64,000 nucleotides of DNA from Asterochloris sp. CNOR1 (lineage: Eukaryota > Chlorophyta > Trebouxiophyceae > Trebouxiales > Trebouxiaceae), in NCBI GenBank assembly GCA_963969365.1, contig OZ017746.1, forward strand, positions 1-64,000, given 5' to 3'. Position numbers and translations under genes: made by a program. The notes below the pieces were generated by a model. That model was given only the letters and a program-made list of their open reading frames with translations, ran no database searches and was not told the DNA's origin. Position 1 is the first letter of the stretch. The number at the start of each line of letters is the position of its first letter. This document shows positions 7,234 through 62,100 of the stretch, one piece after another.

Positions 7234-10200
7234 ATGCACCTTGGGCTGCAGGCAGGCTTGGAGCAGCGCCAGCATCTCAGCAACACTCCCATTTTGACCG
7301 ATGCCAGTGATGCAGTGGGCACCCATACCAGCAGTGCTGGCACCCACGCCCCCAGCAGGGCACCAGCAGAAGACAGCCTGGACGGATCCCACTCAGCGGG
7401 CGGTCGCCATGAAGCTACACCCTACGAGGGCAGCGCTGACACCAGGAATGCCAGCACCCACGGCAACAATGATGATGAGTCAGACCAGGGCCAATCTCAG
7501 CAGGACATTGGCCTACAAGGTGGCGGCGGCTTTGGAGCGGGCGGCTCTCAATACACCGTCCAGGACTTCAAAAAAAACCCAAAGGTAAGCTGCTGAGGTC
7601 CGCACAGGCCTTGCAAGGACTTCTTAAGGGCGTTGAAACTTGAAGATGGGGATGCTGGGGAGCATGTGCCAGCCTCAGAGGCGGATGTGTTTGTGCATAA
7701 TCTCACAGTTTGCAAGGAGGCTGACTGACAGGGCCAAGCTCCAGCTGAAGTCTTGTGCTGTTGCCCTATTTCTCTGTTTGCTTCTTGCTGTTTGACAGGG
7801 AGATGCATGAGCCGCAAGCACAGCCTACTGACTTCAGCAAAAGTGCCTCTTCAGTGAATTCACAATCAGTTGGGACCTGTGGTGCCTTGAAAGCCCCTCA
7901 AGAGGTATACATTGTGCCGGTGCATGGGTGTGCCCCTCGTAGCAGTAATCACATAGAGCTGCATTGTGTGTGCCCTGCTGCAGTATATGACTCCTTTGTT
8001 GCAAATGTTTTGTTGACTGATGTGGCCTGCTGGAACTTGACAGAGGCTTTCGTCTTCTTGCAGAGCTCAATTTGCCAGGCTCGGAGACAAAGCACACCCT
8101 GCTGGACAGCTTTTTGGTGTAAATGTGCCACTCTGCTGCAGCATGTCTTGCAATTTTGTGCAGGACACGGGCCGCACCCTGATGGAAGATCTGAAGAATA
8201 CAGACCCTGAGTCGCGGCAGCAGCTGATGGGGCAGGCGTTGCGGGAGGTGGAGTCCTTGCTGGGGCGTGGCAAGTTGTGAGTGCACTTTTATGTGTGACT
8301 GGTTGTTGGCGCAGGCCCCTGTTGGTGGTGCGCTGAGGACCGAGCAGCCTGTCCAGCAACAGCAATGAACGGGTGCTTACAGTGGAGCAAGCAGGGCTGG
8401 TGTTGTAGGCAACAGGTTGCATGCTGACACACAGGAAAAGTTGTAGCTGCCGTGACTTGCTTTAGTGCTTTTGCGGCCACATTCCTGGAGCCACAACTTC
8501 TTGTCGAACCCAGTTGCCCAGTGTCTGCCCGCTATGGAGCCTGACAAGCTGCTAAACAGCTGCCCCACACAGCCCTGTCATCGTCACTTGAAGGGTGCCA
8601 ACACACTGCTCTTGGCAGTGCTCCATGCAGTATTCCCAGATGGTCAGCACAGCCCCAAGCACTCTGTGTGTGCAGGTGGTGGGCCATGGCATCATCCACT
8701 GCCTTTGCTGTTCAAACAGCCAGAGCAGGGCAAGGACCCCATGCCCACAGCCCCTGGCATTGCTGTGAGCTCCAAGCTGCGATATCCCTGCAGGTGGCAA
8801 CCGCCGTTGCCACCTCATGTGGAGCAGGGCAAGGCCTATGAGAAAGTCGTCTACATTTTTTCCCCGCATCAATATGCGTTCCCTGTGTGCAGGTGGGAGG
8901 ACTATGTAGGACAGGTGGAGATGGCCACAGCCATTGCAGCCTTCAAGGCAGAGCAGGGCGATGACCCCAAGCCCACAGCGCCTGGCATCGGCGACCGCAA
9001 GGAGATGAAGAAGCTACAGGAGGTGAGGCTGTTGAATGGGTGATCCACCTGCACTGTGCTGGCTGCTGATCAAATCCCGGATCAAACAGTAATGGGAGCA
9101 ACCATTGTACTCAGGGAAGTGGTGGCAGTCCTGCTGTATTGGGTGGTGTCTTGTATAATGCCATGGTGAACCTGATAGCTGGCAACAATGCTGATTCACT
9201 GTGCTGTCACTCTCATCTGTGCTAGCCCAGTACCCATGACAAATACTGCCAGTGCCCACTCTCAGTCACCCTCCTGCTGCCCGCTGCTTGCAGACTCGTG
9301 AAACTGCCCTTGCCGAGGTGCTGAAAGGCAAAATTGCGCAGTACGTGGGTGGCGACAAGGCTGGCTTCAGAGCTGGCATGGAGCAGGAGGCTGTGCGCCT
9401 CGCCTCCATGCCATTTGGCAATGCCATGCTGGACCATATCGGGTAAAGCTCAGCTGGGGGTTTAAACTTGTTGAACTTGTTAGGCCTTACAATGGCAGGC
9501 AGGACTCCACAAGGTAAAACTCGTAGGCTCTCTGACCTGGCTGCCAGGGTTGCACACATTTTGGTTGCGCTGCCCTGGGCTCTGGAGTGAGCCAACTGTA
9601 TCTGGAGCTGGCTGAGGAGAGGACAGATGTGGGGGGGTTCAACGTGAGGCATCAGTTCGCCAGGCCTACTGGGAGTGCTGTGTCGGACACTGGGGTGGTG
9701 TCCTTTTCAGGGGTGTAAAGCCATGCTCTCTGGCCACGCTGGCTGGACTTTGGTGGTGTTGAGATTCGTGAGTGAGCTAAAGCCTTTGGGCAGCTCCATG
9801 CTGGACAGCATCAGGTATCAGCAGTGGCTCTGACATGCAAGGGCATGTGGAGCCAGTAACATGAAGCAATCAGCTCAAGGTGCCTGGCGATGTGCCAGGC
9901 TTGAGGGATGACGCAATGTCAACATTGGAGCACGATGTTGGCTCTGTTCAGCGCTCAAGCCCCTATCTGCACAGCCAGACCCTCACCGCTGCACAGCCCG
10001 ACCTCTGTCTGGCTGGTTTGCAGACCTTATTCCCTGCTTTCTATCTGCTGCTGGTGTGCCAAACTTACCAATTGGACCCTGCATTGCACCTGCTATGGCT
10101 TGGATGTGCTGCTGTTTGCTGGCCATCAAGCGCTTTCTGTTTTGAGGGCTCATTCCTGCTTGCCCTGTGTCTTGCAGAACTGCCTATGAGCATGCTGCCC

Positions 10201-13200
10201 AGCCGGTGGCTGGCACGAGTCTGACAAAGTGGGTGCGCCGCAAGGCACACCGAGCACAGTTCAAGGTAAGCTGATGACGTTGTGTAGAAGGTGTCCTTGT
10301 CACTCATCCCTGCTGCTGCTGCTTCTTACCTCTGTATACAGCTCTGTAGACGTCTGCACTGTGTACATATGTGCCCAGGCATCAGCAATGGAGCAGTGCT
10401 GAGGCTGTGTCATAGTGCTTCCTTGCCTAAGTACCGCCTGCTGAGCAGCTCTGTGCGTGGTCTGCAGGGTCAGGCAGCTGTGGGTGGCGTCAGTTTGTAC
10501 ATGATGAAGAGCCATTACAAGGAGTTTGCCCAGCACGGCGCCAAGGGCCTGGCGGAGGCAATTGGTGAGGGAACACATGCACAGCTAGCACATTGTGCAA
10601 TTCCAGGGACAGGCACAGCTGCAAGCAGCAGCGTCATTGTTCGCTACCAAGGAAAGCCGCTTTTTCAGCGGTACCAGGCAGAGGTCGAATTAGCATGGCC
10701 GCAAGTGCACATGGGACCGCTGACATGCAAAGCTATCGGTGCTGCTGTCGAGAGTGCACGCCTGATCAACCCTGTTTCCAGCCTGTAGTTCATGCTGTAG
10801 TTCATGCTCTACTTTGAAACTGCCTTCATTGCTGACTTCTTCCACCTCCCTTGCCTGCAGAGTACTTTGAGGACCATCTGGGGCGCAATGTGTCCGGCCT
10901 ATGGCGTATCAACGTCTACGATGTGGAGACTACCATTAAAGGCGTTGTGAATAAGGTGCTGGCCAAGGACGCACACTCAGACAAAACCAAGCGGCAGACA
11001 GCTGCGCATGCCATCATGGAGATGGGTCAAATCTTCCAGGTAGGATTGCTGAGGTGCAGCATGCAGAAGCAGAGGGGTGCTGGCAAGTGCAGAGTATGCT
11101 TGTGCACGCTGAAGGACCTGGGCAGCTGCCCCTCCCAGTCTGGAAGACAGGCCAGATTCTGTTAGCGGGAACTACTGGATTGTCGTGGGTCTGCAGGCTA
11201 CAATTGCAGGTTTGGCATCTGCAGGAGGGGCTCAAGCTGCCTCAGGCTGGCCTCCTGCTGCTGTAGCCACCTTGCCATGCTGACCCTCCTTGCAGGCTGT
11301 GTTTGGGTTTAGTCACCAGCATGCTGGTCCTGTGTGTAGTTCTGATTACTCACACAACAGCAAAATCCTCACCCACGTGCTCAAGGCTGCTCGCCATGAC
11401 AGGTTTTGTTCAAGCAAACCAACTGCTGCAACATTCTCCGCTTCCCTGTGAGCCAGCTGCTGTGCGCCCTGCCTCTGCAGGATGTGGAGGAGCAGGACAT
11501 CAGGGCTGGCAGCGCCATTGGACTGACGCCTGAGCTTGAGGGCCAGATCAAGCAGGGCGCCAGCCAGGCGCAGGGCGCTCTGGGGCAGGCTGGTGGGCAG
11601 GCCCAGCAGCAGAGCGGGCAGGGGCTGGAGCAGGGCGGGCGCGAGGCTGCCAAGCGCGCAGGTGGGCATCAAGTCCGGCCATACTTCCTATCTGATGCTG
11701 TGCACCACTGTCTGAAGCAGCAGCCAAGGCATGCCTGGTGGGTATGGTGGCAGCGCTTGCGTTTACCTCATCAGGCTGCCCAACGTGCAGCTGCACTTGT
11801 TGCACTCCTGGCATGCTATTATGTGTCTGCTGTGGAGCAGATGGAAGTGCATGCCTGATCTGCTAAAATCTCTAACAAAGAGGTTCTCCTCTGCCACTGT
11901 GAAGCAGGCAGCCATGCTGGCTTGGATGTCTGTCAATTGCTGCGCTTGCTGGCTGCATGGATGCGACAGACAGCATGGCTTTTCCTTTCTGCTCATAGCT
12001 CCCCTCTTCCAGCAGCACCTCACCTGCAGGAATGTTTTCCACCTCCCATGTCCACCCATGTCACCATGTTGTTACGTGGTCAGGCACACAGCTGGGCTCT
12101 GTGGGTGTGCTGCTGATCTTTGATGACTGTTGCTGTAGGCCCTGGAGCTGAGAAGGCTGAGCAGCAGGCCATCCGGCCAGCTGCAGACAAAGTGGCCGAA
12201 AATGCTGAGCCCATGGCAGGGCGTGCCACTGACACCCTCAACCAGGGGGCCCAGAAGTTCTCAGAGCAGGCTCAACCCACAGCAGAGCGCATGAAGCAGG
12301 AGCAGGTGAGCTGTCGTCAGAAACCATCTTTGTGAAGCATGGGGCATATGCTGCAGTGCCGGCTGCTGCAATCCTGACTCTGGGCAGCACCACTCCACCT
12401 TAGCTGTGCCCACAGCTGAGCGCATGAAGCAGGTGCAGGTGAGCTGCATTCACCAACTATCCTGCTGAGGCATGGGGACATGCTGTACACGGCAACGATC
12501 AGACACTTCTGCCATTGTATAGTCAGCTGATGGCTTGGGCACTTTCACATCTAAGAGCCGGCAGCTTTTGCCATATGCATTGGGTGCGGGCTGATTTTTC
12601 TCATGTTCTGCATGTCCTGCCCTGAAGCAGGATCACAGGACAATGTGAAGCCTCTTAAATACCTGGCTTTGGTTGTCTGTGTCATATGTTGCGCCCTTCG
12701 ACTTGTGCGCCCTCCTTTGAGCCATTTATCGTCTTCACCATCAATTGGGCCCTGGTGGTCAGCCTGGTAGCAGCAGCCCTGGCAGCATGCTATGGTGTGG
12801 AAACAAGCCTGACCTGAAGGAGTGGGTGATACCAGTGGCGCACCTGCCGGGTGTAGTAATAATGGCTGCTAATCTCCTGCCCGTCTTTCTCTGAGGGCAG
12901 AGTCTTTTGATGGCAGAGTCTCCAACACATTGTCAAGCCACTGCAGCCACATGGAAGCCGGCTTTATTTGCTGCAGGTGATGCCAGCGGCACAAAAGCTG
13001 GCTGACAATGCGGAGCCTCTCGCAGAGAAGCTGATCCAGGAGGTCATCCAGCCGGCCGCCAAGGTGAGGTACCTTGGACCAGCTTGGAACTGAGCCTTCT
13101 CAACTGCCCGCTTTGCTCTAAGCTCACCCACCTGCCAAACCCCTTGATTGTGACCTGCCCAGCACTTGTTCGCCTGTGCATGCTGAATGGTGCACCAGCT

Positions 13201-20794: not shown

Positions 20795-23700
20795 TTAAGC
20801 AGTCACAGCACTCACTGTTGACAGAAGCTCTGCCAAGCTATCAATGTAAAAGTCTGGCTGGATATTGTTGCTGGGGTCCAACAAGGCCTTCTCTGTTGTT
20901 ACTCCTGCAGCGCGCCGCAGGGATCGTGCACAGACTTGGGAGAGCAGCAACCAAGGCAGCCAGACAGTGACCAGCACCCTACCTGACAGCGTCAGCACTG
21001 TGGCCAGCCCCCCGTCCTGCCCAAACTTGATGTCGGTGTCTAGCCTGTCGCCGACCATGCAGATCTGGTCCCGCCGCAGGCCAAAGGTCTCGGCAATGTT
21101 GGCCAGCATGAACTCAGCAGGCTTGCCCACCACAATAGGCTCCTGCTTGGTGGAGCCTGCATGGATGACACCAGTCTGAGCCGCTCTGCACAAAATGTCT
21201 TTCACAACATTTGCAAAGCTTGTGCGCACGCAGGCATGAAGGGAGGGAACAGGCAGTGCACTCTGCCAAGCATTGCGGCTCCAAGTTGACCCCTGCGGGT
21301 GGCAGCGGCTGTGCCTGGCATGGATCTGGGACAATGCATGGACCCTAGAACAGCAATGCACTGACCTTTGATGGCCCCCACCATGGCACCATTGCCTGCC
21401 CACTCCTGTGCATCCGTGAGGTGAGTCACAGCATCTAGGTTGGTGGCAATGAACTTGCACCCCTCATTCTCCCGTATGCACAGAGTGGCAGTCTGGATCT
21501 TGTGGTAGTTCAGGTGCCTGTCAAAGCCCACCACGACGGCGCCCACCTGTCAGGCACAAGGCGGTGTCAGCATCAGGCTCTCACAGTCTGCAGCCTGCTG
21601 CACAGCGAGGGGCTGGTGGCAGATTGTGCCAGCCCTGAGATCCTGATGTTGAGGTAGGCCGACAGAATGAAAGGCAGGCGCAAAACGTGCAACGAGCTCT
21701 ATTCTGGAGAGCCTAGAGTCTGGAGAAGGCAGGCAGGCCCAACATCTCTGTGCTTGTGCAGCCAGGCAACAGGGCTCAGTGCCCCCTCAGCAATGGACTC
21801 TGGAAAGGCAGGCTGCTTGTAACCCTATCAAGAACCAAAGGCTGCATGCCTGGCATAGTGCGCTGAAGTGGAGACAGGATCACATCTGCCACAGACAGCA
21901 TTCCCATCCACAGGCAGGCTCACATCTTTGTCGTGAGGCATTGCGTAGCCAGCTTTGAGCTCGACGGTCTTGCCAGCATCCTCAGGGCCCCCCAGTGCCT
22001 GAATGCCCTTCAGCTCCAGCTCCTCCATTATGCCTACCTCACCCACCACATACACCTGCAGCAAGGCAGATGCAGAAGTTGGCTGCATGTCCCTCTGCAA
22101 GCAGGGTCATGATGGGCAGTGCTGTTCCCTCTTGGGCCCACCTCTCCACACCTGCAGCACAGCCAGGCACAACAGCTGCCTGTGCATCTAATGCAGCCAG
22201 CTGCGCCCTGCACTGGCCCCTCCACATGTAGCCCACCTGGCCCACCGCATGCACCTGTAGCAGAGCCAGGCACAGGAGTTGCCAGCAAACTAGCAAGATG
22301 GCAGCTGTGCCTGCCTAGACCCTCTGTGATGCCCACTTGGCCACCACATATGCTGCAGCACAGCCAGGCGTAGAGACATGGGACAGCTGGGCAGGCATCT
22401 GAGTGCCCTGGATAATGAGCAGCCCGCCTGTTCTTACACTGCAGCAGGCCAGGGGCACGGGTGTTGGCTGAAATGACATGGACAGCCATGCACTCCAGCC
22501 CAGAAGACTGGCCGAGTGCCTGCAGGGCACTGGTGCCAAGACACCTGCAAGCAAAGAAGTTAGCTGTACGTGACATTGGCACCCTGCCTGGCGCCTCCAT
22601 GAAGCACACTTCACCCACCATACATGCCTGTAGGGCAGGCAGGCAAGAAACTGCAATCTATCGTGCCCTGCCTGACCCCTCCATGAAGCCATTGTCACCC
22701 ACCACATAAACTTGCAGGACAGCCAGGCTCAGTTGCCAGCACAACCCATATCAGGCCTGCTGGTTTGGGATCCAGGTGGGACAGTTTGACAGCAGCACAG
22801 ATGTCCCCTCACTACAGGCACCGGGCAGCACGCCCACATTACTGGACGGCTGTCAGTGATTCTGTGACAGGCAGCAGTGTTTGCCGGATCACTGTATCAA
22901 GCTTGGCAGGTGGTGACCAAGGGCACACTGAGCCAGGTGCAGTAGCAGGTCAGAACAAGCTACCAGCGCATGTGCCTCAGTCTGAGAAGGTAAGCAGTGC
23001 TGCATGGCAGAAGCATTCCCTGCCAGGCCCAGGCCTGAGCTCTACTGAGCTCAGCTGATCAGGACTTCAGCGCGTACCGAGCAGCACACCTGCTAGGGCA
23101 CAGGCAGAACAGTGCAACGAGAGGGATGCTGAGGACATGCAGTCATGCTGTGCCGCTTGCCAGAGGAACAGCGCCTCACCTTTTTGTCCTTAGGGAACTG
23201 CTCTGCTTCCAGGAAGGCAGCTGCAGCATATGAGGATGAGTAGATCTCCTCCTGCAGCAGGAAGGCAGCAACTTGTCAGCTCCATGCCGCTGCCCAGGTG
23301 CTCCAGCCAGTGCTGCCAGTCAGCGAAGTTGGCCCTACTCTTACGTTGGGTTCATCATTAATGGTCATTTCCTGCAGCATGCAGCCCACTCACCGCTGAA
23401 ACTTTCAGGCCCAAGATCTGGAACTTCTTGAGGTACCCCTTGCGGGACTTGGTGGAGTTGTTGGTCACAAAAATGAGTTTCTTGCCCTGCAGAGCACACA
23501 GGCTGTCAGATGCATGCAGACAGAGGCTGTCTGTGCTACCAGCCGCTGCAAAGTCAGCTTGCCTGTGACCTCAGGAAGTCCAGTGTGTCGGGCACGCCAT
23601 CAATGACGGAGTCGCCCCTCCAGATCACGCCTGCAGTCCAGCAGCAAGGGTTGTCTTGGAACCTGTGCCGCCGGTCCGAGAACTGTCAGTGCAGCCTGAG

Positions 23701-24062: not shown

Positions 24063-24160
24063 GTTCAGAACTTTCAGTCAGAATCGCAATGCAAAACCAG
24101 AGATCGGGCCGTCAGACAGGGTCTTAGGTTGCTCAGCCTCGACGCTGAAAGCAATATTGT
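24063..24160. promoter_or_regulatory. Short PGP upstream region next to the palindrome
   Basis: Only about 98 bp separate the PGP start codon from the first base of the 24161-30206 inverted repeat. If the palindrome was inserted, it landed in or beside the PGP promoter. No individual promoter element can be supported. Confidence 0.35.
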
Positions 24161-25870
24161 AGAATTGTGACAGTATGATGACATTGTCAGATTGGGTGTG
24201 CAAGCGGGGCACTTTGGAGGGCCTGCCTGTCAGGTTTTTCTGAGCTGACAGGGCCCACCAGGGTGTGTAAGCATGCCACTTCTGGCGGGGCAGGGAACTG
24301 GTGCTGCAGGGTATGTAGGCAGGCAGCTTCTGGCCACTTCTGGTGGTTTTCAAAAGGTTTCAGGCAGGTGTGTCAGCAGGGCACTTTGGACCGGCTTCCA
24401 CCAGCTCCCAGTGTGGGCTGCAGCTGTCACTAGGGGTGGGTTGTCATCAGGGGCGACGTGTCATTAGGGGCTGCTTCCCTTCTTGGTGCATGTATGTAGG
24501 TTGGCCTGGCAGCCGGGGCTTGAAGGAAGATGTGCATGTATGTAGTCCTTGGGCGCACACTTGTGATGTGTAGGTGCAGGTGGTGGGCTGTCATTAGCTG
24601 GCTGCTGGCGGTGCATGTATGCAGGTGCAGGTCTTACAGAGGACTGGGCAGCGGCTAAAGTGTGTGTTTGTGTGTACGCCTGTGGATTCATTCAGTCCTC
24701 CTCTTGGGACTGCGAGGCCTGCCCGCCTGCCATCCACATGGACATGTGCTTGTTGAGGCGTAGCTGGCGGGCATGATACTTGGCAGTGAGATCGAAGTAG
24801 CGTGCTATGCCACTGTCAAAGCTGTTGCGAGGTGTTGGGAAAGCCAGGTCTGTCTCATCAGTTGCGGCATGTCATCCTCAAGCACCATTTTGCGCTTCTT
24901 GCTGCTCTGGGACACCCCCTTAGCCTTCATAGCCCTGGTTTTCAGCAAACATGGTCATAAGGTAGACATTTGCAAAAACTGTGGCTACCACACAGTGGCT
25001 GGGAGGCCAGAGAAGCATGTATGTACGTAGACATTGAGGGCCCTCTCGGGATGCTACCCAACAAGAAACACAAGGAGCTACGCTCTGGCAAGGACTGCAA
25101 CAAGTGGCGCAAGGGCTACGTGATGTATGCAGACTTCGAGTCCACCCTGGAGCCTGAAGGGTGCCCAGTAACATTGCACTTGGGCAGCATGGTGGCTTTC
25201 AAGCCTGCTGTGGCAGTTACATACAAGACTGCAGGGGTCATGCGGCATCTGACCTGCATGACTGTGTCAGCGCTGTTTCAAGCATTGCGTCTGCGCCTCC
25301 TCCCCAATGTCTGCCATCGACAAGGCGCCTGCACACTGCTCATGTAGAATACCTGCAGGAACACCTGCAAGTGACCAGCAGTGTGCGCCCAGCGCTTGAG
25401 GTGCAGCAAATCTCGTCATCATGTCAGGGCTGCTGTTCCTCTGTCTCCTGAAGGGTGGGCTTGGCTGTCCCTGAGCAAGGCAAACCATGTGCATGCCAGT
25501 GCCACCGGCACGGTGCAGATGAGAGATACAGGACAACAGCGCCGGGCGCCAAGACACAGGCCTTCAACTTTGTCCCCTTTCGTATGGCAGTATCTGCTGC
25601 CATATGCATGAAAGAGGATCCAGTGCTGCGCATGATGAAGACCACTCCATCCAGGGTGGCTTTTGTGGAGCAGCTGGTGAGCACTCCTTCCTTTGGATCC
25701 CCTGCCATTGCTGCCATGATGGCGTGGCTCTGCAGCACAGTCTGCACCCTGATCTTGCTCACCAGCAGCGCCTTCTGCCTGCACCCTACCAGACGTGTCT
25801 CACAGAATGCAGTCAGGTGCTGTGCTGCAACTTTGACGTCTCCTGTTGTATGCTGCAGCCTACCCCTTGT
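24161..25870 (+). mobile_element. Left arm of a large inverted repeat; fossil Polinton-type fragment
   Basis: This 1.7-kb arm is repeated in inverse orientation at 28461-30206, with most positions identical. It encodes a piece of protein-primed family B DNA polymerase: a Cys/His pair region (CKNCGYHTVAGRPEKH) followed by YADFESTLEP, which matches the Exo I region of polymerases from Polintons, Polinton-like viruses and linear plasmids. Other known parts of such elements (integrase, capsid, packaging ATPase) were not recognised, so it is a fragment and looks broken, with several breaks. The high similarity of the arms implies a young duplication of an older piece. Confidence 0.7.
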
Positions 25871-26879
25871 GCATGGTCCCACACTTCACCGAATCACCTG
25901 CATGCCTTCTGGTTGCAGGTGCGGAGGTACCTCAGGGTCAGTGCGACACATATCGCACCAGTCTGATCAGCTGCAGGTCTGGAAGCAAGAGTACGAAGTC
26001 CTGCTTTGCAAGACAGAGCAGCAGAGCTGACATACTCACATCACAGACTCTGTCTTGAGCCGAAGGTGCGGCAGGCACTCCCACCACGTCACAATCAATT
26101 GCTTGTGCCTGCAGCAGCTCAGCTTTGCTGTTAGTATCAGGGTTTGCAGCAGGTGGCTGAGGCGTGTTGACTGCTTACTGCATCTCTTGTGACAGCCCTA
26201 TTGAGCTTGTGAATGTGCGCACCTTGCTATGGCAGCATGTACCCTCTGGGCGAAACACAAATTGTTGGCTCCAGGCCTTGCTGGCAGTGCCCTGACTTGT
26301 CTGTGGCCTGCTGCAGGCTTTTGGATTTGCATCAGTGCAGTGAGAGCCTGGCCACTGCTTAGCCAGCTCACAGTAGAAGCCACCCCACTCATGTCACGGC
26401 ATTCAGCAGTGGTCTTGCCAACAGCAGGCCCAGTGGTGGAGAGCCCAAGGAGTGTCTGGGGAACAGCAGCTACAATCAATTTAGCTTTTGAGTGCAGCAG
26501 CTTCAGCTGTGCGAGTTAGATTGCATCTGCAGCCTGTGATACCTTCTTCAACTGGTTACATGATCTACATTTAGCAGCAACTGTGTGAAAGTTCCTGCTT
26601 TTGACCAATCATGCTGGAATGCACAAAACTGAGACTTTGGGGTATCTGCACAGTTCTGGGCAACCTCTGGGGCTCCACAGATTTGTATCATGCTGTGCCA
26701 GAGGCCACTAACTGCACCAGCACAGATCTAGGCTCTTGCAGGCTTTGGACAAAACTGGACAGGCACATGAATGTGCAGGTCTGCGCCTTTGCAGGGCTGT
26801 GCATCCGCCCAGTCTGGGCCAGACCTGTATGAGTGCACAACAGGCCAACAACATGCATGTGCAGGCTTTGAGCCAGGTC
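25871..26879. other. Palindrome loop, left part: no gene recognised
   Basis: About 1 kb between the left arm and the kinase remnant. Several open frames occur but none resembles a known domain and no splice-consistent model was found. Confidence 0.4.
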
Positions 26880-28290: not shown

Positions 28291-28460
28291 AAGCCGGGCT
28301 TGTTTTGGCCGCGCAGCATCTCTGCTGCTACAGCAGACCCCTGGGCAAGGCAGCAATGTGTGCTGCTCAGCAGCTTTTCCCTCAGCAACCTTGGCTTACT
28401 ACGCAGCACATCAGCTGTGGCTATAACTGCCAGGTTGGCGTCACAAGTCACAGGCGTCAT

Positions 28461-30206: not shown

Positions 30207-31173
30207 AATATATAAAAGCACCAATCAGGCATTTGGTATCTTGGCGTCCGATGACAGGAGGCGGGTGCTGGAGTTGCAGCATCTGGCTGTGTGCCAGCTC
30301 TGCCAGGAGGATGCAGCACCATCTCTCAGGAGCAGCAAGAATGCATATGACCGTCCTGAGCCAGGATTGTGAAGCAAACCAACAGTCTGTGCAGCCCTTG
30401 TGCACAGTAGAGCCAGCACGCACACAGCAGGTAGCCACCAACTGCTGCCCATCTGCTGCAGGCAGATCAGCCTCTTGCGCATCACCTTGCCTTGTATGGG
30501 CTCCTGACAGCAGGCAGACATAGCCAAGAGGTGACTCCCCAGCGACCACAAGACCAGCACGCTGTGAAGATGCGGCCGCAATGACAAGCTGCAGAGGCCG
30601 AAGGTGGCTGCCTGTGAACCAGCAAGTTGGCATGCATTTGTTTCAGCCCTGCAGGCTACCCAGTGCATGGCATCCCACAGCAGCAGCTAGCTCCCTGGCA
30701 GCTTCATGGCCAGAAAAAGCAGCTTGCAGGAGAAAGCAGCTCTGCAAAAGAGTAGCTGCTGCTACTCTGGCAAGCTGAGCAGTTCCACAACTGTCATAAA
30801 GGTGCAAGAGCTCTGAGTCCGTCTGACACGTCAATATGGGGCAGTCATGCAGCTGCAGGCCCGGCAGTTAGTGCCACCTGGCTAGTACAATTATGTTGCC
30901 TAAGCATAGCCCTGATCCTTAATGCCCTCTGCAAGGCTTGAGCGTCTGTCCGTTCAAGTTGCAGCTGAGGCCCAATAGGAGTACTGGGGCTGTTTTTTGG
31001 CAGTGCTACTGCCCCCATCAGGCAGCTGGAGAGAGCCCAGACACCCAGATCAGCACTTGGTTTTGGAACGACATGTGATAGTTTGACCAGGGCTATCCGG
31101 CACATTGATTGCTCGGCAGCCCCGCCGTGGGCCAGATTCACACTGAGAGACCTGGAGGGCGCCTCTTGAGGAT
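30207..31173. other. Intergenic stretch without a supported gene
   Basis: About 1 kb between the palindrome and the start of the coiled-coil gene. Open frames occur on both strands (30225-30668 minus, 30845-31213 minus) but show no domain and no splice-consistent continuation. It should contain the promoter of the gene at 31174. Confidence 0.4.
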
Positions 31174-40276: not shown

Positions 40277-43200
40277 TCAGGGCTGCTCCAACAGATCTGC
40301 CATCTTGTTGTAAAAGGCAGCAAAGTCCTGATCATGCTGGCGCATGGCTTTCCGCAGGATGCCCTCATGCTCAGCTGGCACGAAATGCAGCACGGCGTTG
40401 TGGCCAATGGCTGCATGCTCCTTCTCTCCCTCAGCATGCACCTGCAGGGCAATGGAGCTGCGTCAGCCTCGTCGCAGGGCATTGCATTGTGTCAGCCTAG
40501 TCCCAGGGGATCTCGAGCCAGCCAGCTCATCTGGCGTGCAGGCCAACCACCAGCATCCAGCAAGCAAGTCCACACCTCCAGGAACATCCACTCAGTCATG
40601 CCACGCCCAGCAGGGGCCAGCACCCTCGCATTGAGGGCCTTGAAGCTGTCCAGCATCCAGGTCTTCTCATAGTCAGCCAGGTACTCGATGGCCAGGTTGT
40701 AGCCCAGTGCATAGCAGCCCTGCAGGTACACTTCATACCTTGTGATTCAAGGAAGCTAGCGGACAGCTGAGGCAATGCGCAGCATGATGAATAGAAGGAG
40801 AGCTGCTTGAGCCTGCAGCAAGGCTTTAACCGGTTGCTGACATACTGTCAATGAGGGTGACTCATTGCATGCCTTCTACCAAAGGCTCAGGGCAGACCAC
40901 AAAGTACCTGAAGGTGCAGGAGATGCCCTTGCTGGGCATACACCCAACAGCAGGAGATAAGTCTGTCACCAGGCCAGCGCAAACCATGGCAGAGCGGACC
41001 ATGCAATGCCAGCGAGTGCCTGTCTGAGCCTGCTCAAAGGTCCCCTGATGCTATGTGGGCCCCCCAGAAGCTGCTCACAGGGCACTCTGGACACAGACCT
41101 GCTCAATGGGATCCTGGTGCCCCCCGCCGCCTGAGATGTCCCGCATCATCTGCTGGAAGAGCAGCACAGCGGCGGCGGGGCGGGGCTGGGCGGCCAGGGC
41201 CTGCTCCAGGGGCCGCCGCAGGACGTCCTGGTAGAACTCCGAGAACAGGAGGCGGTGGGTCTTGCCTGCAGGGAAGACCAACACAGAAGGTCCTGTGCAT
41301 TTATGAAAAGGGCTGCCGCAGGACGTCCTGGTAGGATTCTAAAAACAGAAGGCGGTGGGTGTATGCCTGCGGAGAGGACCAACACAGAAGGCCCTGTTAG
41401 TGTGTGAAAGTAGACGCTGCTCGCAAGACCTCACGGCAGCACGTCTTGCCTGAGGTGACGACAACAGATCTGACTCTGCCTGCAGGGGCAGGAGGACCTG
41501 CTGGCTCTGCATGGCACTCTGACCAGAGCTCTAAACGGAACAGTGGGCCACGGTTTTGGCAGCTGGGGCTAGTCATGGGTCCAGCCTATCTAGACAAGAC
41601 CTGACTTGCCGGCGCCTTGCCTGTGTGTCTTCATCAGGCGGGCAGGCCAAGTCGGCGGTCTTCAGATGGGTGCAGAGAGCAGGGAGCTCTATACCTGACC
41701 AGCAAATGCCCTTCTGAGGTCCAGTTCAATCCTGCTGATGACGAATACCCAAGACTGGTTCAGCCAGCTGCTGGGCCTTGGATTGTGGCAGCTGCTTACC
41801 ATGGAGCTTGCTGCTGTGGCCTCAGTGCCATGCACACATGTGATGCAACTGTGGCAGCTGCTCCCGTGGGCCTCACCATGTGTCCTTCTTGGCTCTTTCT
41901 TGGCTCTTTCTTGGGTCTTTCAAGCCCACCCATCCAGGACACACTGAGATGCAGTTCAACATAAGCACTGCCGTTTGCTTTCCTCCTTTGCCACCCAACA
42001 GGAACTCAGGTTGTACTCTGTCTTCACGATATCCAACACGCAGGAACACAGTGCTTGTGTCTTGTGGGAAACACTGCTTTTGTCTTGTAGGAAGCACTGC
42101 TTCCATCCAGACAGTCCCCTGACTGCAAAAGCATCCCAGCCTGGGGCCACCGGTGGTGCATCCCACACCACCATGCAGGCAGGGTGCAGGACCCCACACA
42201 GGTAATGCGATCAATGCACTGCACCAGCTCACCCTGGGGCTCTCCATTGTGCATCCCGTACTCCCCTGCCAGCGGTTGAATCAGGTTTCGGAGGGCCTCA
42301 TCCCGCTGGATGTAGTCGCTGTAGCCCATACTGCACTGCACCTGCAGCAACGACAGCACAAGCTAGATGTAACAAGGCCTTAGGCATGCAGCAGCATGAG
42401 GGAGGATTGCAGCCCTGGCTGCGCGCACCTGCAGCAGTTATGGGGCGAGGCACACCTGACAGTGCACCTGGTCACCATACACAGCCAGCAGCCTGAGAAA
42501 GGCTGTCTCCTATGCTGTACTGGACCGGCACAGGCAACAAGAAGGGGCAGTCTCTGTGGCTGCATGCCAATCACTGGAGACATGCATCAGCCTCTGGCAG
42601 TCCCTGAGCCCCACCAGCTCTGAAATGCTTGGACAAATCAACCAGGATGATTAGGCAGTGCGGTGCATGCAAAGCTGTAAGGCAGCACTGCGAAGGCTGT
42701 GTAGCGGCAAATGCTTCTTCTCCTGAGAGGCAGGGTTGCCAAGACAGTGCTGTGGATGCGACACTGCTGTGAAGCTGCGCTGAAAAGATGTACATCGGCA
42801 GCGGTTGACCTTGAGGAGAGTGGCAGTAAAAGCGGGGTTGAAGGACTCCAGGTTGAAGGCGAACTCGTTCATCACTGGCAGCAACAGCTCCTCTGCAGCC
42901 AGAGCAGGATGCAGAGTGAGGCCACTCAGACCGTGGGTGTGCTGCAGCAGCAGTCCTGCACAGGCAGGAGGAAATCCTCTGCAGCCAGAGCAGGATGCAG
43001 TGTGAGGCCACGCAGGCTGTGGATGTGCAGCAGCAGATCTCCTGCAGAGGCAGCAGCAGCTCCTCTACCTAGATGCAGTGTGGAGCCATATGGGCGGCAC
43101 AGTGCAGCAGCGGACTGCTCAAAGGCTCAGTCCCATGGCTGACATCAGCCCCAGTGGCTGGTGCCGCAGGCACTGACACCCACACACCTGTAGCATCTAC

Positions 43201-49122: not shown

Positions 49123-49199
49123 GCCCAGCACCTGGTTGCACCCCTGGTTGCCGCCATCCAGTGACCTTGAATGTGCTTTCCAGTGTCAAGCTGCACCAC

Positions 49200-50037: not shown

Positions 50038-51981
50038 TCAATCAAAGCTATTGATCAATGTTCGCAACAGCAGGAGCTCCACCTCACGCATCTGCAACTT
50101 CTCCTTGAGCAGCCGCAACAACTCTTCTTCTCACACAAGTGTGCATGCTGACCCTGCCAGCCGTCTGGCTTGATGCTGCGCAAGTCCTTCATCTTTGTTG
50201 TCACAGTGCTGATGTTGCCCACCGCGTCCTCGAACTGGCACTCCAGCAGGGCCAGCTCTGTTGTGTCAGAACCCTCCCACCTGGAGCGCCACTTCGAGGA
50301 CTGTTGTTCTTGTGCTGAATGTTGTCTGCAACAGAGCACAAGTCGTGTCAGGAGCACCTCCTAAACATGGCTGTCAAGTGAGGAGGTGCAAACCAGTCAG
50401 CAGCCTCACATGCTGCCACCACTGGCATCTTATATCAGTGCCTCACCGCAGGGAGCCCTCCTCATACAGGAGTCGCATGCTAAACAGGTGTGCGGCTGAG
50501 GGTGCTGTCACAATGCGTTCTTGATCCTCTCCAAATGCCTGTTTCGGGATGTCCCTTGCCCACTCTGCAGCGCAGGGCTGGCGTCGACTTTGATCAAGGG
50601 CTCTCCTTACGCTGACGGGGAGCACGCTCAATCTGCACATGGCCTACTTGATGCCGTCCTGTATGCCAACATGTTGGCCTTCACCATGGCGTGTACAGCC
50701 GCTGTAGCCCCCTTCCCCAGCTCTGAGCACAAGTCGTATCTGATGACTGCATTGTGGGGGCTCTCCACTAAACGCTGCACCACATATCTGTACTGGGCTG
50801 CGCTCCAGCCAGGCTGACCCCTCAGCCCTGCCTCCACCTCGCTGATGGGGCTGCTCCAGACCTTGCAGAGCGCTGTGACACAGATGGGTGACATGTCAGC
50901 AGATTGAAGCAAGACTCACAAGGCCATGCATCTAGCACGAGACACGCACCTGCTTGAACATTTTCATGGGTTTTCAGGTACCTGGAAGTTGTGATCAAGT
51001 GACCAGCATTGCCCCCACACACCTGTGTGGCAGCAGAAGGCAGTGCCTGGCACAGCGTGCACCAAACAAGGTGAACCACACTTACCTCAAAGATGCTGGC
51101 CCACTCCTTGTCACTAAGTTGTCTTCTGTTGCTCATGAGCCCTTGGAAGAATGTGCGCGCCTCTGGCTCAGGGAAGTCCCCAAGGTCCTCTGAAGATGTC
51201 CACAAATAGCTGCCCCGCAGCTCTACATGAGACAACAGATTGAGCTGGTGCAAGAGCATGGCGACCGAGGACAAAGCTTGCCTACTCACTGTTTCCCAGC
51301 CAGGCCTCAAAGGTGGAGTCAGACGTTGCAAAGATGACATGGGCTCGGGGCGATTTTGCAAAAATCTGCATAGACCACTGAAGACCTATGAATCGCTCAT
51401 GGTGATCACTAGGCAATCATGTGCAGCAGCCAGCAGGTCACTCACCTGGACAAAGAAATACAGCAGCGCTTCGACGTCACTCTGCAGGTGCCAGTCACTT
51501 CCCAGCCCATCAGCACGTGGGCGTCGTCAATGCAGATGACGGGTGGGGACCCCGAGGCCTCCCTTCTCATGGTGAGTAGCACACCATAGGCCACCATCAG
51601 CGTGTTCATAGGGCATGCGGTTGATGCTGGAGCTGGCCAAGAACCAACCCACAGCTTGTTCATGATGGCTGCTTTGGCCACATCCCTCAGCCCGTTTTGA
51701 AGCACCTCCAGGGCATCGAGGTGGGCGTCAAGGTCGCGCCACAGCCTCTCAATCAGCACACTGGGATGTGACAGCTCGGCCACTCTGCCAGTCAAGAAGG
51801 TCACTGGGGTGTCCAGCCTGTCGCTCAACAAAACTTCTCGCAGCAATCGGGATTTGCCGCTGCTGCGAGGGCCGACGATGGACAGTATCTTGTGGGGTTT
51901 ACCTTTCAGCTGGGCAAGCAGGTGGGCCTGCTCTGTTTCTCTGCCAAAGAAGGGCCCGTCATTGACAATCTGAAACAGCAT
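50038..51981 (-). CDS. P-loop ATPase of the AAA/STAND-like ATPase_2 type, about 430 aa
   Basis: Minus-strand exons: 51981-51446, 51365-51290, 51222-51086, 50861-50648, 50564-50447, 50280-50153, 50129-50038. The protein starts FFGRETEQAHLLAQL, a typical opening of ATPase_2 domains. It has Walker A GPRSSGKSR (about residue 33), Walker B VICIDDAH (about 158), a sensor-type AHVIFATSDSTFEAW, and then LSDKEWASIFE and a winged-helix-like region with TAPSAAHLFSMRLLYEEGSL. The last exon is a leucine-rich coiled coil (EELLRLLKEKLQMREVELLL). Homologues in plants and algae are largely uncharacterised. Right after Walker B the frame seems to slip by one base between AHVLMGW and SDVEALLYFFVQ: either a sequencing or assembly slip, a mutation, or an unusually short 35-base intron. 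An upstream exon may exist before 51981, where CTGTTTCAG is also a good acceptor. Confidence 0.7.
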
Positions 51982-52376
51982 GGCATCGTCTCAGCACTGG
52001 CCCCACAACCTGCCTACCTTTTGTGACTCGCCTTGGGATCCTGAGCATGTGTCGTGGTAACGAGCTGCTTCCTGAGGGCACGGGCAGGCCTGCAAAGACA
52101 AGATGCTGTTGACAGGTGCCTCTCTACCAGCCGCATAACACGAAGGTGTCACACCTTTGCATGGAGCTGACACAGCCTTCAAGCAGGCCGCGCGATGGAC
52201 ACACGACTGGACATGTGAAATGCCTCCCCAACAGGAGCTGCATTGCTTCAGTTGTGAGGAATTTCGGCAGTGACTGCCCCTCTCCGCGCTGCAAGGAAAA
52301 TTTTAGAGCTGTGAGATCAGCAAGACTTGGGGTAATTTAGGTCCTCCAGCTGGGGGGTGGTGATCAGGCAGCAACA
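51982..52376. promoter_or_regulatory. Shared upstream region of ATPase and ClpR3 genes
   Basis: About 395 bp between divergent start codons. It may include an additional 5' exon of the ATPase (open frame around 52030-52090 on minus). No element recognised. Confidence 0.35.
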
Positions 52377-55300
52377 ATGCAAACGCAATCTCTGCCCGGA
52401 TCCTGTCTGTGCAGGCATCCGCTCAAACAGACCAGGCTGTCCTGGGTTCACACCAGCCCCAGGCGCTGCCTTGTCCAGCATAGCAGTGGCCCTGTGTGCT
52501 CTCTAGGTGACCTGGTGCATTCATTTGTTCCTGTTGGCCAGCATATGCTGAATGTTGGCAAGAGTTGCGTGTATCCTGCTGCAGAGAGCCACATCGCTGC
52601 CGCCAGCAGCAGCACCCCAGCCAGCGGTCAGCTATGGGTGCCAGAGGCCGACCTGCAGATGCCAGAGGTCCGGGGGGCCGCAGGAGCCCCTGCAGCAGTG
52701 GGGTATGGCGGCAATGGTCGCCGCCCCAGGACGCCACCCCCTGACCTGCCATCCCTCCTTTTAGATGCCCGCATCTGCTACCTCGGCATGCCGGTGAGAG
52801 CCTGCAGCGGCAGTCTTCAAGAGCAGCGCCAATGCCACTGCGCAGGCTGCATTGCATCGCTGGCCTAAGCTACTGCTTCTGCTCTGCATCTCTACACTGG
52901 TCTCCAATGCAACTGAGCCACACGCTTGATTGAGAGGTCTATCACGCAACTGCGGACTTTACTGTACAAGCAATTCCCAAGCAGAGCAACTGCCAAGGAT
53001 CATGGGTCAGTTGTCGTGCTCACCCAGAACAGCTGAACCCTGCAGCCTGATGGCGGCCTTGAGCTGCACTCTTGAGCTGCGCTGCATGCAGCCACACACT
53101 GCATACTCCCTTCTGGATGCAACTTTAGCCCCATGGAGTACTTCTGTCCCACCCTGGCAATCTCTGAGCGACATGCTTACAGTCCCCTTCCCTTCTGCAG
53201 CTGGTCCCTGCAGTCACAGAGCTCATCATCGCAGAGCTGCTGTACCTCCAGTACCGGGATCGCACCAAGCCCATGTTTCTGTACATCAATTCCACAGGCA
53301 CCTCGCGTGCAGACGGCGAGACGGTGAGCCCTCACAAAGTGCAGTGTGCTGCTGCCAGGCCCGCCTGTTTGCAAGACCAGCAGCAATGTGCCTCCTTGCA
53401 GTTGAGCAAACCCTGGTAAGCTTGCCCAGCAGATGTGCGTGAGCTGGACTGTTGGCTCATCTCCTGACTGAGGCACTGCTCTGCCATGCTGTGCTGAGCA
53501 TGGACGGCTACTTGCAAGACCAGCAGTAACGTGGCTTTTTGCAAGACCAGCAGCAACATGGCTCCTTGCAGTGCTGCGAGCCTGGCAAGCTTGCCTCAGC
53601 ACAAGTGTTTGGGCTGGGCTGTCGGCTTGAGGCACTGCTGTGCTTAGCCTCTGCATGTTGTGCTGAGCACAGAGAAGCGCTGCTTTGCGCGGCACCATGT
53701 TGCACAGCTGGCCCTGTGACGCAGGTTGGGTTCGAGACCGAGGGCACTGCCATCTACGACACAATGTGCTACGTCAACAACGAGGTGCACACCGTGGGCG
53801 TGGGCGCAGCCATGGGGCAGGCATGCATGCTGCTGTCGGCTGGCCACAAGGGCAAGCGCTTCATGCAGCCCAATGCGACAGGTGAGGCCTGCATGCTGCT
53901 GTTGCCTGGCCACTAAGGGCAAGCACTTCATGCAGCCCTTGAGGCATGCATGCTGCAGTCAGCCAGCCACAGGCGCATGCGCGTGCCTGCAAATGAGTGC
54001 GACAGGTCAGGCCTGCATGCTGCTATGAGCAGGCCACAAGGGCAAGCGCTTCATGCAGCCCAACGCCACTGGTAAGGCCTGCATGCTGCTGTTTGATCGG
54101 CCACAAGGGTCCTGCACTGCTAGCCCTGCCTGCCCTGCCCAGTGCCACATGGGAGGCCTGCCTCTTGCTGTCTTGCTGCCCTTCCCTGCCAGGGTAAGGG
54201 TTACCCTTGGGCTGCCACAGCTGCAGCCTGGAATTCAGAGTGGAGCACTGCCTCTCCGTGAATTCACCCAACATCCTCATCTGCTCTGCTGGGCTTGCAA
54301 GGTGCCCTCCCAGGCCTTGCGTGGCGCCCCACATGCCAAAACCAACCTAAGGCTTGCCTGCGTGCACAGCTTGTACACCCACTGCAGCAGCGTCTCGAGC
54401 ACGCTGCAGTCACCTGTAAAGGCAGCTACCCTAGCTGGTACCCTAGTGGGGTGATCCCTGTCACTGCCCTGCAGCCATGCTCCAGCAGCCCCGGGTGCCC
54501 CCCACGGGGCAGAGGCAGGCCATCGAGATCCAGATCAAGTGGCGGGAGGTGCTGGCCAACCAGCAGGCGCTGCTCAAGATCCTGTCCAAGACCACAGGGC
54601 ACACCACTGAGAAGCTGGCCAAGGTGACCCAGCTGTCTCCAGCACCAGCAGAGCAGAGAAGGCAGATTCAGGCCTGTCCTGCTGCTTGCCGTGCTTCTCC
54701 TGTACATTCAGTAGATGCTCAGAGGGATTAAGGGCATCGTGCTGCCCTTCGTTGGGCCATACAAAATGTGACACCCCATGTTCTAGGGTGGCGCCTACCC
54801 TGTGACATGTATGGAGCAATGCTGGGGCCTGTGAAAGAAGGCGACAATGCACACCACTGAGAAGGCGGCCAAGGTGTGCAAGGCTGTAAGTTCGTGTGCA
54901 GCATGCAGGTGTCTGCTGTTTGTGGAGGTTGCTCTGGCATCCAAAGATGGGCTCTGGCACCAAAGATGGCATCACTGAATACATTCATCTGGAGTGCCTG
55001 CCTGCAGCAAGTGCAGCGGTGCAGCCCACAAAGGGGGCGGCCTTGCCTGTTGCTCATGCACCAACTGTCGCTGCTGAGGTCTTGTAGCACAGCCAGGACC
55101 AATCCCCTTCAGGCAACACGGTCCACTGACTAGGTCTGCTGCCTGCAGGATATGCAGCGCCCGCTCTACATGCAGCCCAAGGATGCTCTGGAGTACGGCA
55201 TCATTGACGGCATCGTCAAAAGCCAGAAAAAGAAGGATGGGGACCAGATCATAGATCACGTGCCTAGACTGGAGGAATACGGCAGAGATGTGAGTGGGGT

Positions 55301-55663: not shown

Positions 55664-56104
55664 ATTCTTCGAGGGAAGGAAGACCCATGCACAATCATCC
55701 AAAACGTTTGTTGAAATACTAGGCTGAAATGCAAGATCCATTCATACGTTTGTATTGTGGAAAAGGCTGACTGGTGAACGTCCATATGGGGAAGGATTGT
55801 TGTCCTACGAGGTGTGGGGCAAGACCAGATGATGAGGCTTGCAGGAGGTGTACACATGAATCACTGAACTCAGCACTACTAAGCACCTGGACAATGAAAA
55901 GTAGGGGGAGGGGCACGCTTCCCTGACAGTGTGTGCCAGACAGAAGCAATTGAGCAGCTGCACATCGGTCCTGTTTAGGAGACACAATGGCCTCTGGCTG
56001 GGGGCGTTGCAGTGCTGTGGGGGGCAGAGGCAGGTGCATGTCTTGGGGGAGGGGCAGCATGTGTGGCTTAGGGCGTAGCCTGCAGGATAGCTCAGGGTTC
56101 TTTT
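55664..56104. other. Gap between convergent ClpR3 and BTB genes
   Basis: About 440 bp holding both presumed 3' UTRs. No RNA gene or open frame with support was seen. Confidence 0.5.
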
Positions 56105-59100: not shown

Positions 59101-62100
59101 TGATCCAGCACAGCATGGGCAACAACAGGCAGAGCAGTCCCCGCTCAGAGTTCCTGTACCAGCTGCCGCAGGCAGAGCAGTCCCCTCTCACCCTTCCTGT
59201 GCCAGCTGACTCAGGCAGGGCAGTCCCGTCTCAGGGGCTCTGTGCCAGTTCACACAGGCAGGGCAGTCCAAACTCAGAGACTCCAGTGCCAGGTGATGCA
59301 GGCAGGACAGTCCCCTCTGAGAAGTCCTGTGCCAGCTGACGCAGGTAGGACGGTCCCCTCGCAGATGCCTGAGCCAGCGCTCCACAAGGAGCAATGCAGT
59401 CTCTCCAGGCACAAGCACGCCTCAAGAATGTGCTGGCCCTCGTGCAGATTGCAAAGAGACAGGACATTGGTGCCCACCTTCAGCGCGGCCTGAGCCACGG
59501 CCGGACGCATGTACTTCTGCACCCAACCTAGCTCTCAACCGACAGGCAACCAAATGATACCTGACCTCCCCCAGTCCTTTCCTGACTGCCCCTGCCTGCT
59601 CTGCCTGCCGGTGTACAGCCACTTCCCCAATGCTCAAGTCTCCTGAGGGCAGCAAGTGTACACCCTCTTCTGCAGCTGAGTCATGGCTCAACTGCACATT
59701 TTAGCCCCAAAAAGTCTTTCACAGCCACCAGGCAACCAACTTAGTTAGGAGTCAAGCTCCCCCAGCCTGGACGCCCCTGCCAGCTCTGCCTGCCAGTGTA
59801 CAGCCACCTCCCCAATGCCCAAGCCCCCCAAGAGCAGCAGAAGCAAGCCCCACACCAGCAAGTAAGTAAAGTGAGCGATGATAAGTCAAGGTAAGCCCCA
59901 CCTGAAGCGCCTCAAGGGGCATTGCCAGGAAAGCTGCCTGGCGCTCCTCGTCGGTCCATACCTCGTCCAAGTCCCCAAACTCCTCCACCAGGCGCGCCAG
60001 GCCCCGCTGCATGAGGCGGCTGAAGGGCTTGTGCCCATACAGCCCCGCAGGGAGGCGCAGGAAGCGGTAGCAGGTCTCCAGGCTCAGCAGGTCGTGCTGC
60101 AGGCAGCCAGCAGGAGGGCAGGTGAGCAGCAGTGCTGCTGCCATGACCCAGCAGGGTGTTTCAGTTCTTTCCTTTGTCAGCTGCAGGCAGCAGGGAACAA
60201 GCTCTAGGGATGCAATGCAGTCAGCAGCTGCCAGGGGCCCAGCAGCCATTTGCTTTCAGTCCTTTGGCTTGCTGCAGCACAGGAGAGAGGAGGGAATGAG
60301 CTCTGGGGATGCAGTGCAGTGAGCAGTGGGGCTGCTGCCACAGCCCAGCATGTTTTGGTGCAGGCAGCAGGCAGGGCAAGTGGGCTTTGCTAAAATTATT
60401 GTGCAGAGGGGCTGCTGCAAGGCTTCAGAGCTCGTGCTGCACAACAGTGAGCAGCACTGTAATGCTCAGCGTGCAGCAGGGGAGGGAGGTCCTGAGGTCT
60501 GAGGTTGCCGTGCAGTGAGCGGCAGTGTTCAGCATGTCATGTTGTGCAGCAGGAAGCGGAGCGCATCACAAGCAGCACTGTTTCACTGTGCGCTTAGCAG
60601 GTCATGCTGCAGAGGCAAGGTGTGGTGACCATTGTTAGTGGCTATGGACACATCACAATGCTGTGACGCTGACAGGCCGTTACACGGGGGCTGCAACAGT
60701 GCAGCTAGCGCTCTTGCTGGGCTCCGTGTTGGCCACACAGCATCCAGAAGGGTCTGCTCTGCCTGTGTGGTGCTTCCATGCCCTGCTCACAGTAATGAAG
60801 TCTGGCCAATGGCACCAGCCATTCCCAACAGTCAAAGCCGCGGCAGCTAACTGCTGATTGGCGCTACAATTGCCATAAGGGTGAAACTTAAGCATTTGCC
60901 CTCGCAATCAACCACAGCAAGTTTGGAACTGCTCAAGTGACGATTCAAACAGCATCTGCTCACCGGGATCTGGTTGAGTAGAGTGGCGCACCGCCGCACG
61001 CAGTCCTCCATGAGAAAGCGATCTGCCAGCTGCATGAGGCGCAGCACATCCTTATCTGCAGGCAGCAGGGTAGCGATATTGTCATAGTGTGAAGTGGAGG
61101 CACAGAGCAGAAGGCAAATCAGAGCAACCGATGCAAGTGCTGCTGCGTGGCGCACGGCCCGTGTGCACATGCAGCGCTGAGGCCTGCCACCCTTTCCAAG
61201 CCTGGGCCAAAGGGCGCCTGCAAGTGCTGCTTGGCGTACAGGCCTTGTGCAATGGATGCCACATGCAGCACTGAGGCCTGCCACCCTTGCCGAGTCTGGG
61301 CCAAAGGGCGCCTGCAAGTGCTGCTTGGCGTATACCATTGTGCACTGGATTCCACATGCAGCAATGAGCCCTGTCACCCATTCTGAGCCTGGGCCTGCGC
61401 CGCTATTTAGCTTAGTTTGCGCACCTAGAGCCCAGCCAAGATCTGCGCAGCGACTCTGCTATGGCCTCGCCGAGCATGCAGCCAGCAAGCTGCCCAGAAC
61501 TGGGTCCAACATTGCTGGCCCCTGCTGCACCCCCAGTGGCATCCTCAGCTGGCCTATTTTGTGTGCAGCAGCCTCCCTGTGCAGTCCACCTACCTGTGCA
61601 GCAGCCTCCCTGTGCAGCCCACCTCCCTGTGCGGCCCACCTCGCTGTCCAGCGGCCTCCCTGTGCCTCCCTGTGCAGCAGCCCACCTCTGTTGAAGGGGA
61701 TCTGCTTGGTGTAGCAGAAGCGCACAAGCGCCTCGAGTGTGCGCTCCTCCCCCGGGGTCACCTCGAGGTGCAGCTCCCGGCTGTCGCCATCGCTCCACTC
61801 CTCCAGCTTGCGTCTGCAGGGGGTGGGCCAAGCGTTGTGCTGCAGCAGCTCACATGGAGGCCAGGTGGCCATCTGCGCTGGAATGTCGGTCAGCTCTGGA
61901 GTCAGTTACATGCAGCAAAGGTGCCGGCGTGTGCAGTGCGGAGAGTTGAGCAGCAGCATGGCAGACTTGCTGAGGTCCCTCTGCCCTGTGTTCATCTGGT
62001 GACAGAGGTTCATGCCAGTGATCATGGCTGCTGGTGGTGAGGGCAGGTGTGCTGTGCGGGCGCTGCTGCTGTATGCTGCAAGGATGGCAGCCCAGAAACT

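Follow-up and report, generated by a model that had tools for sequence, protein, structure and literature searches.

Decayed copies of exon edges and short local tandem duplications in the genome of the green alga Asterochloris sp. CNOR1

In several genes of the first 64,000 nucleotides of contig OZ017746.1 of the lichen alga Asterochloris sp. CNOR1 (assembly GCA_963969365.1; this whole stretch is called the window below), introns contain diverged direct copies of the neighbouring exon edge. Is DNA here duplicated specifically across AG/GT junctions, as a preliminary description of the window had proposed, or are junctions only the place where a more general process is best seen? We found the observation to be real but ordinary in kind, a common mutation easily seen at exon borders. 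Probably, short tandem duplication is frequent in this genome and blind to gene structure, and its relics stay visible longest at junctions.

The analysed DNA comprised 264 kb, namely the 64-kb window (positions 1–64,000 of contig C1) and five 40-kb blocks from contigs C1–C5 of a 56.4-Mb genome in 21 contigs. The window carries a TTTAGGG-type telomere repeat at 1–535 and is therefore a chromosome end. A gene finder trained on the 264 kb returned 48 genes scoring >12 with 464 introns, 260 of which were within quality limits, leaving 252 donors and 252 acceptors that could be tested; a looser gene-boundary setting was dropped because it yielded 1397 genes, mostly fragments. The models average 9.7 introns per gene and a gene length of 4.3 kb, near the 9 introns and 4.2 kb published for A. 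glomerata, whose genome is described as 56 Mb with 98% of it at 56–62% GC (PMC6652019). The word "tandem" is absent from the main text of that paper.

Direct copies at exon edges and elsewhere

To detect exon-edge copies, each 60-bp exon edge was compared with its own intron, with a placebo intron and inverted sequence as controls. At p ≤ 0.01, 21/252 donor-side and 18/252 acceptor-side edges matched their own intron, compared with 2/252 for the placebo intron and 4/252 on each side for inverted sequence. Matches were present in all six blocks (5 + 2 of 64 in the window, 16 + 16 of 188 in the remaining blocks together), so a chromosome-end effect is not the cause; in block C3:1500001–1540000 (L017–L020), 8/33 donors and 5/33 acceptors had copies. 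The copies are 62–84% alike to their source, and reading phase is broken in 31/39 of them, 28 by a frame-shifting indel and 3 more by an in-frame stop. The match rates are probably underestimates where the gene finder took parts of copies for exons, as happened in the models of PGP, DnaJ-X and ClpR. A second comparison, of exon edges of 54–101 bp at eleven window junctions in or near the genes named earlier with 300 length-matched foreign intron stretches, detected one or more copies at p = 0.003 for seven junctions (8893, 12305, 22055, 41254, 42948, 53881 and 54623). Positive junctions had one to three copies each at p ≤ 0.05, with matched copies spanning 34–105 bp, and none of nine curated junctions had an inverted match at p ≤ 0.05. 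The earlier characterization of the copies as direct, 20–110 bp long and out of phase is thus upheld, while the one to five copies per intron that it reported come down to one to three, the five seen by eye in PGP including three at this threshold.

The earlier suggestion that introns grow in this way also fits the data: introns with an exon-edge copy have a median length of 358 bp (n = 36) compared with 253.5 bp for those without (n = 224; p = 2.4e-4), a contrast that is partly confounded by the greater room for copies in long introns. This supports the lengthening of introns through local tandem duplication.

Duplication is not confined to exon edges. When dust-masked 120-bp tiles of the window were compared with the next 1 kb, 85/1024 scored at least 130, compared with 5/1024 against foreign stretches. 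Pairs of 40-bp windows at least 70% alike were about 1100, 490 and 100 times as frequent at shifts of 20–119, 120–219 and 220–319 as in the far-shift background, which stood at 0.02 windows per shift; beyond a shift of 420 repetition fell to 1–13 times background. Altogether, 166 events were grouped into 101 duplication loci (102 in a recount with slightly different clustering, which gave block B5 16 instead of 15), at 10–24 loci per 40-kb block and 29 in the window. The loci cover 4.2–13.7% of each block, so that to call introns "filled" with copies was too strong. The densest block, C3:1500001–1540000, holds 24 loci in its 40 kb. Blocks B1 and B3, when simulated with a fourth-order Markov (Markov-4) model, yielded 0 duplication events, and 50 kb of E. 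coli contained 0 loci, a check of the method that is uninformative on other eukaryotes.

Two further properties of the loci characterize the process. First, the period was divisible by 3 in 26/27 exon-exon events, compared with 40/123 in the intron-intron, intergenic, exon-intron and intron-mixed classes. This contrast is a clear mark of selection acting where the process itself is blind. Second, relatives at other places in the sample exist for only 3/101 loci, and two of these are the arms of one inverted repeat; introner-like dispersal was rejected on this comparison of duplication loci, in agreement with the earlier view that introners are something different. A sharply preferred unit near 100 bp was also considered and discarded, as the period histogram is broad (20–220, with a mode at 80–100). 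The inverted repeat itself lies in the window at 24154–25871 and 28458–30213, with arms of ~1.75 kb about 2.6 kb apart that align in five pieces, 94–100% complementary, with 1234 nt at 100%. It may be a recent fold-back, a transposon-like element or an assembly palindrome.

Duplication and the position of splice junctions

To compare compartments on equal terms, a 60-bp query and a 220-bp target were used throughout. At p ≤ 0.01, matches were found for 16/108 and 12/107 exon edges, 17/290 and 13/290 intron tiles, 34/538 intergenic tiles and 9/175 exon tiles (4.5–6.3% for the tiles). Intron middles (4/115 and 9/115) and intron ends (16/197 and 10/197) also repeat within their own intron, at rates comparable to those of exon edges, and exon interiors 90–150 bp from the edge match the intron less often (4/108 and 0/117). 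The surplus at exon edges is significant (28/215 vs 30/580 intron tiles, p = 3.4e-4; vs 34/538 intergenic tiles, p = 0.005) and amounts to a ratio of 2.52 over intron tiles (confidence interval 1.54–4.11) and 2.06 over intergenic tiles (1.28–3.31). However, a simulated process with no regard for junctions gave a ratio of 1.74, inside the interval for intron tiles, when exons evolved at 15% of the neutral rate, and 0.99 when exons drifted freely; the ratio was 1.42 in a previous run whose ages were uneven. Much of the edge surplus can therefore be put down to detection bias. The placement of the 101 loci is likewise nearly blind to junctions, with 13 exon-exon loci (12.2 expected at random), 17 exon-intron (16.5), 32 intron-intron (32.8) and 15 intergenic (17.9), and a junction lies within an aligned copy at 43/101 loci vs 36.8 expected (sd 4.7). 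Taken with the repetition of intron, intergenic and exon tiles, this does not bear out the earlier claim of a process acting across AG/GT junctions.

The explanation we favor is a tandem duplication process with shifts of ~20–250 bp and a median near 100 that would be indifferent to gene structure, presumably the product of a repair or replication event. Within exons, almost only duplications of a multiple of three would survive. Copies wholly within introns or intergenic DNA would be neutral, and with both copies drifting they would fade rapidly. Where the unit spans a junction, the spliceosome would stay with the outermost site, the 5'-most donor or 3'-most acceptor, leaving the protein unchanged and the intron one unit longer, while the inner exon copy, trapped in the intron and probably neutral once spliced out, would decay. 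Selection preserves the exon copy, so such relics stay recognizable longer, and it is this longer life of exon-anchored relics that would make junctions look special. Local duplication, its range of sizes, its occurrence in every compartment, the filter for multiples of three in exons and the decay of the copies are observed directly, and use of the outermost site is seen in two genes, PGP and ClpR (below). If correct, this account provides a concrete, countable route to longer introns without a change of protein. It also carries a warning that exon-anchored relics exaggerate how special junctions are, and junction relics mislead gene finders.

Several observations weigh against this explanation. 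The observed 2.52 exceeds the simulated 1.74, which agrees with it only in falling inside the interval, and the simulation assumes the indel rate, exon constraint and uniform ages, with shifts taken from 82/101 loci. The intervals of the equal-geometry comparison are themselves approximate, since tiles were reused and the same introns were tested forwards and backwards, and a further junction preference of up to ~2.4-fold is possible. Mixed locus classes depart from random placement, with 15 intron-mixed loci (10.7 expected), 4 mixed-mixed (1.8) and 3 exon-mixed (5.6), as do the 166 individual events (exon-intron 22 vs 30.6 expected, exon-exon 27 vs 19.6). On the intron side of copied junctions identity is near noise (0.42 vs 0.39 for the null, compared with 0.59 on the exon side), although the two sides are hard to compare because only the exon side was chosen by its similarity; intron-side identity exceeds 0.55 in 3/39 copied junctions and is below the expectation from simple decay in a few strong cases (at 54623, 0.83 vs 0.34). 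Among the 85/101 loci whose homology was compared with their shift (those with fewer than three events; the 16 with at least three were excluded), 14 had a best identity of at least 0.9. Homology reached at least 0.8 of the shift in 10 of these and fell well short of it in the other 4, and the older classes have median ratios of 0.63–0.89. As homology is often short of the shift, strict head-to-tail structure is unproven for most loci. Finally, the gene structures are our own predicted models, and the protein check covers only parts of two genes.

Two readings would give junctions a larger role. In one, junction-spanning duplications in Asterochloris would be favored to a greater degree than detection bias explains and, being silent through outermost-site splicing, would work as a one-way ratchet with ~100 bp of intron gained per event; much of the length of introns, and many cryptic splice sites, would then stem from them as a main source. 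We consider this rather unlikely. In the other, exon edges would be duplicated into introns where DNA breaks or the template is switched at AG/GT junctions, a process that might, for example, be linked to splicing or to the TGCAG motif. The higher match rate of exon edges than of intron and intergenic tiles, and the part of the 2.52-fold surplus beyond 1.74, are what such a process would produce. Yet junctions fall within copies, and exon-intron loci occur, about as often as at random, and intron interior, intergenic and exon DNA also repeat; we regard a junction-directed process as unlikely.

The copies might instead be alternative or mutually exclusive exons, or decoy splice sites with a regulatory role, maintained by selection. 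A splice-model score >2 within 4 nt is kept by 6/21 copied donors and 7/17 copied acceptors, so a minority of copies have usable-looking sites. However, mean scores drop from 5.4 at the source to 0.2 at copied donors, with GT within 4 nt in 7/21, and from 8.8 to 1.5 at copied acceptors, with AG kept in 12/17 (17/18 mappable). The intact frame and splice sites of mutually exclusive exons were not found, given the 31/39 frame-broken copies, and the independent protein records P0001 and P0121 omit copies that they could contain. We regard selection for such roles as very improbable.

Still slightly more improbable is the birth of introns themselves, which the preliminary description had raised, through a process in which an exon segment with AGGT is duplicated in tandem (the Rogers model), the two intron ends being copies of one site. 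The splice consensus, CAG|GTGAGC and TGCAG|G, does overlap AGGT, and the model is supported in other systems (PMC3443670). Recent births of this kind should leave intron ends that match in register, and in 235 introns such matches were not clearly above chance, a result that bears on recent events only. At the 95% level, the exon to the left resembled the intron end in 10 vs 10.5 expected and the intron start resembled the exon to the right in 15 vs 10.1; the counts were 3 vs 1.9 and 3 vs 2.4 at 99%, slightly high at the strictest level of 99.8% (1 vs 0.4 and 2 vs 0.4), and 7 vs 6.6 and 4 vs 7.4 in an ungapped comparison. Chance similarity from biased composition (CAG/CTG-rich DNA and shared splice motifs, with CTGCAG and CAGCAG 11–12 times over-represented) or assembly error has a negligible probability in view of the placebo and inverted controls, the far-shift background, the empty Markov-4 controls of two blocks and a divergence of exon-edge copies that would be too great for assembly duplicates. 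CTGCAG occurs 957 times in the 264 kb, 11.6 times as often as base composition predicts, and there are 911 occurrences of CAGCAG; no more than about half of the CTGCAG sites can be explained by the 464 predicted acceptors.

Genes and copies in the window

Among the genes for which junction copies had been reported, DnaJ-X, PGP, the coiled-coil model and ClpR have them at p = 0.003. On the minus strand, the PGP exon at 21924–22055 has its real acceptor at 22055, and its start is copied at 22205–22254 (72% over 53, p = 0.040), 22591–22624 (78% over 36, p = 0.040) and 22664–22711 (73% over 52, p = 0.003); of the five copies seen by eye, three are significant at p ≤ 0.05, and a single one at p ≤ 0.01. 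P0001, a 363-aa protein from a 1743-bp contig, is identical over the 312-aa PGP query and agrees with the joining of this exon to the one before the copies. It joins KDKK directly to VYVVGEVGIMEEL (KDKK-VYVVGE), so splicing goes to the 3'-most acceptor and passes over the copies upstream of it. As the gene takes up ~3.1 kb of DNA, the contig must be spliced.

ClpR, on the plus strand, has three copies of the exon end at donor 53881, at 53932–53991 (76% over 63), 53999–54071 (84% over 73) and 54075–54149 (69% over 75), and one of the exon end at donor 54623, at 54828–54873 (78% over 46), all at p = 0.003. Part of the window protein is 100% identical to record jgi/Astpho2/4179, over 64% of the query. 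The JGI protein P0121, a gene model and not necessarily a transcript, lacks the copy at 53999–54071 and reads FMQPNAT-AMLQQ, indicating that the 5'-most donor is used and this copy skipped. From the start of P0121 it is also clear that our own ClpR model has wrong first exons. Opposite these wrong 5' exons, an AAA_16 ATPase domain that looks like ORC4 lies on the minus strand at 51442–51990.

In the DnaJ-X gene model (plus strand), the source exon at 8893–9022 was identified from sequence, the gene model and a Pfam DnaJ-X match on the joined exons; its start was read by eye, the gene finder having placed it at 8794. A decayed copy of this acceptor-side exon start lies at 8658–8762 (71% over 107 columns, p = 0.003) and a second, partial copy at 8789–8836 (70% over 50, p = 0.017). 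The exon end at donor 12305 is copied in the next intron at 12342–12438 (63% over 101, p = 0.003); this copy retains the GTGAGC donor motif, and part of it was called an exon. A protein search gave no match at E ≤ 1e-60, and the splicing of this gene is predicted. The coiled-coil gene model, also on the plus strand and matched to the gene of the preliminary description by a guess, has a copy of the exon end at donor 41254 with a shift of 100 (41308–41354; 83% over 47, p = 0.003) and one of the start of the modeled exon 42948–43001 with a shift of 86 (42867–42914; 81% over 48, p = 0.003), the latter overlapping an 86-bp × 2.3 tandem array.

The other named genes fared less well. The UBL/HERPUD-like donor 45947 and the acceptor 19190 were not significant in the curated comparison, although both were at p ≤ 0.01 when 60-bp edges were tested, and the haem-oxygenase-like gene was not found in the window. 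BTB-BACK has no significant copy of its exon edges in the flanking intron (BTB donor 61686, p = 0.19; BACK acceptor 61055, p = 0.74). A 94-bp × 2.5 array at 61166–61395 (Tandem Repeats Finder, 87% matches), in which the gene finder placed an exon, probably lies in a BTB-BACK intron. Away from the tested junctions, the same program found a 130-bp × 1.9 array (also 43-bp × 5.4) at 59125–59364.

Relation to known duplication systems

Small tandem duplications at staggered breaks are one known parallel to the Asterochloris copies, and a rice paper on "natural insertions" reportedly belongs with them. Such duplications are a known mutation class (PMC8355091), tandem genomic duplication is a standard and long-named model of intron gain (PMC3443670, PMC4974935), and linked duplications with splice sites among the copied DNA occur in vertebrate genomes (PMC2671141). 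The statement that the habit has no established name thus holds only in that a special name for its genome-wide form was not found. Among the papers listed, we also did not find an account of introns lengthened by duplicated splice sites in an alga, a weak negative as most subscription journals were outside coverage.

The duplications at staggered breaks, attributed to Pol alpha-primase/CST and end joining, likewise give direct copies near their source, from tens of bp upward, in plants as well as animals (PMC8355091), whereas the copies in Asterochloris are decayed, with breakpoints and repair signature no longer visible, and sizes extend to ~250 bp. Duplications from repair by capture of proximal DNA are also closely linked and include splice sites and partial exons, but some are in opposite orientation (PMC2671141), and exon-edge copies in Asterochloris have no inverted excess. 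In the potato RdRp case a tandem duplication crosses an intron-exon boundary and so meets splice sites as well (PMC4974935); there an intron was gained, whereas in Asterochloris existing introns are lengthened without a clear signature of new ones. Introns of Chlamydomonas and Volvox are similarly repeat-rich, more so near intron-exon junctions (PMC3887541), though the units in that survey are 1–50 bp and those in Asterochloris mostly longer and decayed. Introners make introns in many genes, but as dispersed copies of one element (PMC9860276), unlike the loci described here. In Asterochloris, direct copies near their source greatly exceed the background and occur in all compartments, and the process matches known short local tandem duplication.

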